DNA of 45,237 bases. It comes from an uncultured bacterium (lineage in GTDB: Bacteria > Armatimonadota > JACIXR01). The notes under the pieces were generated by a model. The model was not told the DNA's origin and did no database searches. It saw only the letters and a program-made list of their open reading frames with translations. This document shows positions 10,401 through 13,360 of this stretch, piece after piece. Location of the stretch: assembly GCA_938041455.1 (NCBI GenBank), contig CALITO010000017.1:1-45237 (forward strand), read 5' to 3'. A program made the position numbers and the translations under genes. Numbering within the stretch: the stretch's first letter is position 1; the number at the start of each line of letters is the position of its first letter.

Positions 10401-12812
10401 TCAGCTATCCAGACTGATACAGCTCGCTCCTTGTATGGGGATGCAGACCCCCATCAGGGGTGGGAGACCAAGAGGTTCATAATAGCCCTTAATCATAACT
10501 TGTTTGACATCATCCACCGCTTCCTCTCTCGCCAAAATCATAATGGAACCTCCTAATCCTGCTCCCAATATTTGTGCTCCTAAAACACCCTCCACTCCCA
10601 TAGCGAGGTCTACCATAAAATCTATTTTTGGCGTGCTGCAGGCATAATCGCCGGGCTGATAGGGTAGAGAAAATTCCTTACAATGGGGCTTTTTCCTTTT
10701 ATTTTTTATGAGATAATCAAGATATTCATCGGAGACATCGTTGAAATAAGGGAGCATTTGCCCATTATCAGCCAGCTTGGAGACCCTGTCGCCATTATGG
10801 GAAATATTTATTAATTCAGCAAGGGCATAGATATCTCCTTTTAAGAGCAATTCCAGGCCTTTTCTACTCCTTGCGCATTCAGCAATCCCAAAGAGGCAGA
10901 CACCTCTCACAGGATACTCCTCAAAGACGCAGTGGTGTTTGGCGAGTATTTCTTCTCCCTCTTCTCCAAGCGTAGATAACACATCCTCTCTTCGCATCTT
11001 CACAGGAAGCGATTTGAGGAGACGGAAAATTTCTCCCTCATCCATACCTATTTCCTCGCTAAGGAGGTCGCGGAGGTGTTTAATATGGGGAATCTTTTTT
11101 CTTAGCAAATGTGTCCCTATCTCGTAACAGGCGACCCTCTGGTTGAATACATCCCTCGCGTTTCCCGCCTTCTGAGCCTCCTCGTGGGAATAAGCGAAAA
11201 GGAAGGCAAAACCTTTGGGGAGTGGTGCACTATCTATGTAGGCGAAAGGATGGAAACTGAATTGATTAACGCAGGAAAGTTTTCCCATCTTTATTCCTGC
11301 ATGATCTCCCATACCTCCCCTTGTGCCCACAAACCACTCCCCTTCCCCGCAGAGGTGAACGAATTGCTCAGGAGGGAGGGAGAGCCCGTTAAGGAGGCAC
11401 AATGCTTCGGCGAAGGCTACAACTAAGGAAGAAGAGGAACTGAGTCCGGAGCCAATGGGTATATCTCCCCAGACGAGGGCTCTGAAGCCCCTGAGCTTTA
11501 TGTCTCTGAATCGTTCCTGGAACCTAAGGATAGAAGCCTTGGCATAAAGCACCCAGTCGCCTCGCAGGAAGGCTCTCCCATCAACATCTTCCCTCGGGTA
11601 TATCTCCTCCCAATTGCCCCAATAGAACTTCTCCATTTCTTCTCCGATACTGAAGGAACGAGGGGGGAAGCGTTCCTCTAAATTGAGTATTTCTACAATA
11701 TCATCCTTGCGGGGAGCAACCACCATCACGATTTCCCTATCTACCGCGATGCTGTTCACCCTTCCACCTCTGTGGTCTATATGGCGTCCCAGTATGTTGA
11801 GCTTTCCCGGTGAACGGACGAGGAAGACGAGCTCTTCAGTTCCAAATTTAACAACGAATCCTTCGAGCAGGCGAAGGAAGACCTTTATTTTCTCTTGGAC
11901 GAGTTCTTCTCTCCCATAAATTCTCTTCAAGCTCTTGAGGAGCCTCGGTTCCTTACCTTGGAAAAGGGCTAGCCATTCCCCGGCAGGTCTCAGATTCCTA
12001 TCATCAAGCAGGCGCCTTTTTTCCGAGATAAAATGCACCCTTCCTATCTTCCCTTCTATTTCCTCCAACTCCTTGGGTGTATTGAAGGTGAGGACACTTT
12101 CCTTATCAACTTGGTGAGTTTCTATCTTCCCACCCCTTTGATAGAGAACCGCCACGATATCGGTGAATTGTTCCTCACCACTGTAAAGGTCAGGAGTTAT
12201 CTTGTCTATGGACTCGTAAAGAGCCTCAGCCTTCAACATATAAATGGACTGGTTCGTTTCACCAAAATGAGGCAAATTACTTTCCCGTCCTTTGCTTTCT
12301 ATGACCGCTTTTACCTTGCCATTCTCGTCCCTAATGATTCTGCCAAAACTTTTCCCCTCGCAGAGGGAAGTAGCAAGGAGAAGGTCGTAACCTTGTGTTT
12401 CGAACCTTTTTTTCATTTCCCTCAAGTTGCCGCCATCTACTATCTTGTCGCCAGCGATTATCAGTAGATTCCCCCGGAAGTTATGAGCTTTGAGTAATTC
12501 GCAGGCACATTTCACTGCATGTCCCGTCCCCTTCTGGGGTTCTTGAAGAACAAAATTAACATCGGGGAATTCTTCTTCAACAATGGCTATAACCTCTTCA
12601 TATCTATGCCCAACAACCAGGAGAATATGGGGAAACCCCCAATTTTTAAGGGTGGCTATCGTTCTATTTATCACGGGAATCCCACCCACAAGATGGCAAA
12701 CCTTGTTTCTATCGCTATTCATCCTCGTTCCTTTTCCGGCAGCGAGGATTACACTTATCCACCCTCTCTGGGGAAGGGTAGAATTTAGCCGGGGGAAGGA
12801 GTGAACCCGCAT
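10401..12812 (-). CDS. bifunctional sugar-1-phosphate nucleotidyltransferase / GHMP sugar kinase fusion
   Basis: An 803-residue two-enzyme protein. Residues about 18-250 are a GlmU-type nucleotidyltransferase: LAAGKGTRM at 23-31, QKGTGHAV at 93-100, GDK at 121-123, with no left-handed beta-helix acyltransferase after it. A linker of about 80 residues leads to a galactokinase-like GHMP kinase at about 330-800: PGKLN at 335-339, GRHIDHRGG at 342-350, IPIGSGLSSSSS at 451-462, GGMGDHAG at 499-506 and GAGLGGS near the C-terminus. The order matches FKP (fucokinase/GDP-fucose pyrophosphorylase), so it should convert a free sugar to sugar-1-P and then NDP-sugar. Galactokinases normally read G-E-H-T/I-D in the sugar loop; here Arg replaces Glu, and HIDHxGG resembles plant galacturonokinase. 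The only suitable ATG lies inside the AMMECR1 gene (28-base overlap). Confidence 0.85.
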   Translation of the reverse strand: MRVHSFPRLNSTLPQRGWISVILAAGKGTRMNSDRNKVCHLVGGIPVINRTIATLKNWGFPHILLVVGHRYEEVIAIVEEEFPDVNFVLQEPQKGTGHAVKCACELLKAHNFRGNLLIIAGDKIVDGGNLREMKKRFETQGYDLLLATSLCEGKSFGRIIRDENGKVKAVIESKGRESNLPHFGETNQSIYMLKAEALYESIDKITPDLYSGEEQFTDIVAVLYQRGGKIETHQVDKESVLTFNTPKELEEIEGKIGRVHFISEKRRLLDDRNLRPAGEWLALFQGKEPRLLKSLKRIYGREELVQEKIKVFLRLLEGFVVKFGTEELVFLVRSPGKLNILGRHIDHRGGRVNSIAVDREIVMVVAPRKDDIVEILNLEERFPPRSFSIGEEMEKFYWGNWEEIYPREDVDGRAFLRGDWVLYAKASILRFQERFRDIKLRGFRALVWGDIPIGSGLSSSSSLVVAFAEALCLLNGLSLPPEQFVHLCGEGEWFVGTRGGMGDHAGIKMGKLSCVNQFSFHPFAYIDSAPLPKGFAFLFAYSHEEAQKAGNARDVFNQRVACYEIGTHLLRKKIPHIKHLRDLLSEEIGMDEGEIFRLLKSLPVKMRREDVLSTLGEEGEEILAKHHCVFEEYPVRGVCLFGIAECARSRKGLELLLKGDIYALAELINISHNGDRVSKLADNGQMLPYFNDVSDEYLDYLIKNKRKKPHCKEFSLPYQPGDYACSTPKIDFMVDLAMGVEGVLGAQILGAGLGGSIMILAREEAVDDVKQVMIKGYYEPLGLPPLMGVCIPIQGASCISLDS

Positions 12813-13360
12813 TCTCCTTCGCTGAAAACCTCTGCGGTGAACTTATATATCTCGGTATCCTCTTTTTGCCAGGCGTCGACGGGTAAGCCCGCCTTGAGAC
12901 AGGTGTGTTGGAGGAAGGTTTCCCTATCCCAATTATATTCAGTGGCCACCTGGGGGAGGAGAAGTCCAGCGAAAGGAGCACTCCTTATATACAGCCCATG
13001 CTTGCCCACCTCTATCTCCTCTATACTCTTCACCCGCTCCAAGGGGGAGAGCACGGATATTTCTATCTCCACAAGGGGAAGTTCCTCAGGAGTTAGAGGG
13101 GGGAAGCGAGGGTCGTCTACGGCAGCAGCAACCGCCATCTCAGCAACAGTTTGATAAAGGGGTTTGAGGGGATATATCAACCCTATACATCCCCTCAACA
13201 TACCACCCTTCTTCAAGGTGACAAAGGCACCCCTCTTTTCTTTGAGCGTCGGAGATGATACCTCAGGGAAGGAAATTCTCCCCTTAGAGAGGTATGACTC
13301 CAAAGACTTCCTCGCAATTGATAGAAGTTGTTCTTTTTCTTCCTTACTCAATTTTCCCAT
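12785..13360 (-). CDS. AMMECR1-domain protein (AmmeMemoRadiSam system protein A-like)
   Basis: A 191-residue single-domain AMMECR1 protein. The diagnostic hexapeptide LRGCIG is near residues 55-60, followed by AAAVDDPRFPPLTPEEL, the LPLVEIEISVLSP strand, GLYI, GLLLPQVA and a tail with FLQHTCLKAGLP. These are all typical of the family called protein A in AmmeMemoRadiSam gene sets. The partner Memo and radical-SAM genes are not in the window, so the set would have to be scattered or absent. The biochemical function of the family is not established. It lies between the divergent deacetylase and the kinase fusion; the next ATG falls within its last codons. Confidence 0.9.
   Translation of the reverse strand: MGKLSKEEKEQLLSIARKSLESYLSKGRISFPEVSSPTLKEKRGAFVTLKKGGMLRGCIGLIYPLKPLYQTVAEMAVAAAVDDPRFPPLTPEELPLVEIEISVLSPLERVKSIEEIEVGKHGLYIRSAPFAGLLLPQVATEYNWDRETFLQHTCLKAGLPVDAWQKEDTEIYKFTAEVFSEGECGFTPSPG

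Follow-up and report, generated by a model that had tools for sequence, protein, structure and literature searches.

A GlmU-type nucleotidyltransferase fused to a galactokinase-superfamily kinase as a candidate one-chain sugar-salvage enzyme of bacteria

The fusion gene and its conserved residues

The window (the whole stretch of 45,237 nucleotides that was analysed) carries on its reverse strand an intact open reading frame of 803 codons (10401..12812) that starts with ATG and has no internal stop. That it is a chance reading frame is excluded, since orthologues of the same genus align along their entire length at 66-67% identity and a search of GTDB (one genome per species, 84,980 species) confirmed 209 related stretches. 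Pfam domains NTP_transferase (residues 20-227), GalKase_gal_bdg (318-367), GHMP_kinases_N (424-510) and GHMP_kinases_C (719-777) all match above their gathering scores. Domain and profile matches together with the active-site alignment define a GlmU-type nucleotidyltransferase half at residues 18-250 (12063..12761, reverse strand), and domain, profile and fold matches define a galactokinase-superfamily GHMP kinase half at residues 318-800 (10413..11861, reverse strand). An earlier note on this DNA had described such a fusion, in the order of bacterial FKP (fucokinase / GDP-fucose pyrophosphorylase); the reading frame and the Pfam matches bear this out, and its coordinates, domains and sugar loop were all correct. 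The fusion overlaps an AMMECR1-like gene (window 12785-12840), and the small phosphatase/arsenate-reductase-like gene that separates these two genes in two relatives of the same genus (L133, L132) is missing there.

GlmU is the nearest solved nucleotidyltransferase to the N-terminal half and its best family match among curated models, at a score far below the GlmU cut-offs. The nucleotide-binding signature LAAGKGTRM lies at residues 23-31 (12720..12746, reverse strand). Alignment with E. coli GlmU shows that G14, K25, Q76, G81, T82, D105, G140, E154, N169, E195, T199 and N227 are kept, where K25, Q76, D105, E154, N169, E195 and N227 correspond to K37, Q90, D122, E172, N187, E213 and N244 of the fusion. 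The catalytic and sugar-contacting residues, the latter being what we take to be the GlcNAc contacts of GlmU, are kept in the window protein and in almost all relatives. The uridylyltransferase active site is thus present in the alignment; the left-handed beta-helix acetyltransferase domain that follows it in GlmU is absent, and the C-terminal half is by Pfam a GHMP kinase instead. An inactive nucleotidyltransferase half, which the earlier note saw as counting against its reading, was not what we found, as the GlmU active-site residues are intact. In at least one fusion from Lentisphaerae (L056) some catalytic residues of this half are lost, with His in place of the Mg-binding Asp and E154/N169 deleted. 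Many relatives have an extra stretch of ~80 residues that is missing from the window protein, at a place between residues 172 and 186 of the latter. A separate GlmU-like protein is encoded in the host genome.

The sugar loop of the kinase half, within the galactokinase GHMP superfamily, is PGKLNILGRHIDHRGG, and read from the window protein it is RSPGKLNILGRHIDHRGG. In the family alignment the loop GRHIDHRGG occupies residues 342-350 (11763..11789, reverse strand), with R343 replacing the Glu of galactokinases; neither the galactokinase-type GEHTDYN loop nor the Glu of the GALK2-type GEHID loop is found in the window protein. The other kinase motifs, all on the reverse strand, are PGK at residues 335-337 (11802..11810), the ATP-binding loop PIGSGLSSSSSL at 452-463 (11424..11459), the catalytic-base loop GTRGGMGDH at 496-504 (11301..11327), where D503 lines up with the catalytic Asp in the GIMDQ of galactokinase, and a family signature, SHNGDR, at 671-676 (10785..10802), which is absent from the GalK, GALK1 and galacturonokinase-like sequences aligned.

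Alignment of 94 relatives gives PG[RK]xNxxGRH[IV][DE]H[RQ]GG as the motif of the fusion family, in which the ATP loop, D503, CGEGEWFVG[TS]RGG and SH[DN]GDR are near-invariant and the loop His and Asp are conserved. The replacement of the loop Glu by Arg, pointed out in the earlier note, is thus real but not peculiar to the window protein, as 92 of the 94 members share it. The Lys in place of the usual PGR Arg is also real; as a family trait it was rejected, since it is restricted to the window's genus (three sequences) and the remaining 91 have Arg. The curated galactokinase model TIGR00131 gives the fusion 129.1 bits against a cut-off of 226.65 (367.6 for the GalK of the same host). As the scores against curated models are far below the cut-offs, the protein belongs to neither GlmU nor galactokinase.

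Kinship of the kinase half

The AlphaFold2 model of the fusion has a mean pLDDT of 89.1. Among solved structures its fold is closest to human GalNAc kinase (2a2c and 2a2d), with human galactokinase next. GALK2 also comes first in a profile search with the kinase half (191 bits), yeast Gal1 matches well, and AbGHMP (PDB 9ulx) is a distant solved relative. The phylogeny against galactokinase, GalNAc kinase and galacturonokinase that the earlier note proposed was run with 68 sequences, and a second, smaller tree was used for the AU test. The fusions and their sister families form a clade (support 100/99) that lies outside GalK and on the GALK2 side, so that the kinase half is not placed firmly inside the galactokinases, an outcome that the note had held against itself. 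This clade joins GALK2, itself a long branch, at 94/85 in the 68-sequence tree and 93/75 in the smaller one, and the split of the fusion/GALK2 side from the galactokinases has a support of 97/96 in the former. Like the fusion, GALK2 has an SSSSAL ATP loop and a GT(E/R)GG catalytic loop; unlike the fusion, it is a stand-alone enzyme with a Glu in its loop (GEHIDYCGY) and without SH(D/N)GDR, and the two are ~23% identical. Since the GALK2/GAL1 branch also holds galactokinases (L141, loop GEHTDYNHG), the branch by itself leaves the sugar unfixed.

The earlier note had suggested galacturonate as the substrate, with UDP-GalA as the product, partly from the HIDHxGG pattern that the fusion shares with galacturonokinases (plant GalAK and bacterial GAHIDHQ proteins). 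Our results do not support this suggestion. The galacturonokinase-like proteins form a group of their own (100/99) within the galactokinases of the 68-sequence tree, and a single clade of fusions and galacturonokinases was rejected in the smaller tree (p-AU 0.0227). The Arabidopsis galacturonokinase sequence in the tree serves as a lead only; three bacterial GAHIDHQ proteins taken from sequence collections group alike. These bacterial proteins (L158, L161, L163) have the PYRICxxGAHIDHQ motif of plant galacturonokinase and come from genomes that also have the fusion, so that at least three genomes carry both. That loop is not found in the window protein, which reads SPGKLNILGRHIDHRGG. At the position of R343 the bacterial galacturonokinase-like proteins have Ala by alignment, as presumably does the plant enzyme, and galacturonokinases are without a nucleotidyltransferase. 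Membership in the galacturonokinases is therefore rejected by the tree, the AU test and the motif. Nor is HIDHxGG a diagnostic hint or a uronate signature, because the variants GNHTDHN and NPHSDHQG occur in other clades: DH(Q/N) is also seen in galactokinase-like proteins, mostly clostridial, that lack the O6-binding Glu and read GNHTDHN (L145, L146, L147, L153).

Two related families were also observed. One is a sister kinase family of ~600 residues in the window's phylum, whose loop is NPHSDHQG instead of GRHIDHRGG (L111, L112, L113, L114, L118, L130); at L114 the kinase gene directly follows a separate nucleotidyltransferase gene, and this split form supports a functional pairing of the two activities. 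The other, of ~622 residues, has a degenerate FLEYLDMCAGD where galactokinases show GEHTDYN (L115, L117, L119, L121, L134).

Distribution and gene neighbourhood

The fusion family is sporadic and spread over many phyla; in four phyla sampled it was found in 2/79, 1/81, 8/60 and 2/80 genomes. Our literature searches found no papers on a nucleotidyltransferase-kinase fusion of the present type, and no function is assigned to the family in the libraries searched.

We surveyed the neighbours of 96 fusion loci (1.05 Mb of flank). A gene for a NagA-like deacetylase is adjacent and co-directional at seven of them (Acidobacteriota/Aminicenantes, Planctomycetota and the window's phylum), GlmS at four, one of them masked (Planctomycetia, Phycisphaerae and Actinomycetota), and a GalE/TviC-type UDP-sugar C4-epimerase at six. 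From rough gene counts, the one-sided Fisher p is 4e-5 by locus and 0.02 by lineage for NagA, and 0.012 and 0.045 for GlmS; the classes were picked post hoc, the NagA query was taken from one of the surveyed loci, and the p values at the lineage level are modest. Most of the adjacent NagA-like proteins score just below the NagA cut-off, so that their substrate is uncertain. Among further fusion loci from wider phylum samples a NagA neighbour was found at only one, of the Acidobacteriota type (L179), and the Hydrogenedentota fusion loci have no amino-sugar neighbours. Presence or absence of NagA-like genes across the phylum was dropped as evidence, being too common to be informative. The neighbours of the window fusion itself are housekeeping genes.

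Neither galT nor fuc genes were found beside the fusion in the 96 loci. Since the same reading recovered galT at galactokinase loci, the survey is able to see a known pairing. No uronate genes are adjacent in the 96 loci, the only two being on the opposite strand and >4 kb away. The host has a canonical galK adjoining galT, and other fusion-bearing genomes also have a separate galactokinase, beside galT in some. In Clostridia, the fusion is flanked by a gene for an Anabaena sensory rhodopsin transducer (ASRT, PF07100) directly upstream and by GalE directly downstream (L051:1630-2031; ASRT is also upstream in L054).

Proposed activity and candidate sugars

One-chain salvage of a free sugar to an NDP-sugar, as the earlier note read it, is the natural reading of a fusion in FKP order, and it is well supported because both active sites look intact. 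Judged by sequence, the protein is very probably bifunctional, an anomeric sugar kinase and a UDP-sugar pyrophosphorylase in one. Its C-terminal GHMP half would phosphorylate a free hexose at C1 with ATP, with D503 as the base and the R343-H344-x-D346-H347 loop gripping the sugar, and the GlmU-like half would then convert the sugar-1-phosphate and UTP to UDP-sugar and pyrophosphate. Both reactions, the UTP donor, the sugar identity and any channelling between the halves are what we infer for the fusion.

The same design is known from zebrafish DrGKUP, where an N-terminal nucleotidyltransferase and a C-terminal GHMP sugar-1-kinase take a free sugar to a UDP-sugar (PMC3938481). DrGKUP resembles the present protein in domain order and salvage logic, but its kinase is of the glucuronokinase type and its nucleotidyltransferase is RmlA/GalU-like, as described in that paper (PMC3938481). 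Bacterial FKP shares the order and logic too; unlike FKP, the fusion does not have a GGWTD-type loop, and neither a fucokinase-family nor a fucokinase-type pyrophosphorylase Pfam domain matches it at E<=0.001.

As the sugar we tentatively favour an N-acetylhexosamine, GalNAc more than GlcNAc, at somewhat less than an even chance; this is the likeliest of the candidates and would make the protein a 1-kinase / UDP-HexNAc pyrophosphorylase. It is suggested by the kinship on the GALK2 side and by the amino-sugar neighbours that recur in relatives, which, like the fusion itself and the intact active-site residues, are seen directly in the sequences. The enzyme would then yield UDP-GalNAc or UDP-GlcNAc and serve to salvage amino sugars that are set free from polymers or when the cell wall is turned over. 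The main unexplained feature is the loop Arg: as GALK2 itself retains the loop Glu (GEHIDYCG), R343 has no explanation on a sugar with a neutral C6.

Another sugar, such as a pentose (e.g. L-arabinose), a 6-deoxysugar or an N-acetylhexosaminuronate, possibly on another nucleotide, is a less likely choice. Single loci have an arabinose-isomerase-like protein (L094) or a TviB/TviC pair (L052) as neighbours, and GDP-mannose 4,6-dehydratase-like neighbours, read by eye and indicating a general glycan context, occur at L070 and L099; all of these are seen less often than the amino-sugar genes, and the GGWTD-type loop of fucokinases is absent from the fusion. One could further speculate, although we think it rather unlikely, that a kinase of the GALK2 branch has independently changed its loop to Arg for a charged sugar (uronate or N-acetylhexosaminuronate) and hands the product in-chain to the GlmU-like domain, a UDP-uronate salvage with no kinship to either plant galacturonokinase or the zebrafish fusion.

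Arg would suit a carboxylate at the place where the galactokinase Glu contacts O6, and R343 is nearly invariant. A 1-kinase / UDP-uronate pyrophosphorylase for galacturonate or another uronate, with R343 binding the C6 carboxylate, would also be a convergent parallel to the zebrafish uronate kinase/pyrophosphorylase fusion of identical domain order (PMC3938481). We find it improbable, given the separate galacturonokinase-like clade, the Ala in its loops and the genomes that hold both proteins. The lack of adjacent uronate genes argues only weakly in the same direction, because an anabolic kinase need not neighbour catabolic genes. Galacturonate itself is possible but unsupported.

Least probable is galactose salvage without GalT by a galactokinase / UDP-galactose pyrophosphorylase (an Isselbacher-type route), which galactokinases on the GALK2/GAL1 branch and GalE beside the fusion in two Clostridia would favour, but which is opposed by the separate galactokinases of the host and other fusion-bearing genomes, which in the host and in some of the other genomes adjoin galT, by the loss of the loop Glu throughout the family and by the TIGR00131 score (129 against 226.65).

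The kind of enzyme is thus known from the zebrafish glucuronate fusion (PMC3938481), and the libraries searched offer no characterisation of the present family, which is found in many phyla that have been little studied. Annotation by similarity alone risks labelling its members as galactokinase or GlmU. Because the GRHxDHxGG loop is conserved, the question of the sugar can be put to a direct test. If the N-acetylhexosamine reading is true, a bacterial one-chain enzyme from GalNAc or GlcNAc to UDP-HexNAc would represent a salvage route that is new, and would be useful for one-pot synthesis.
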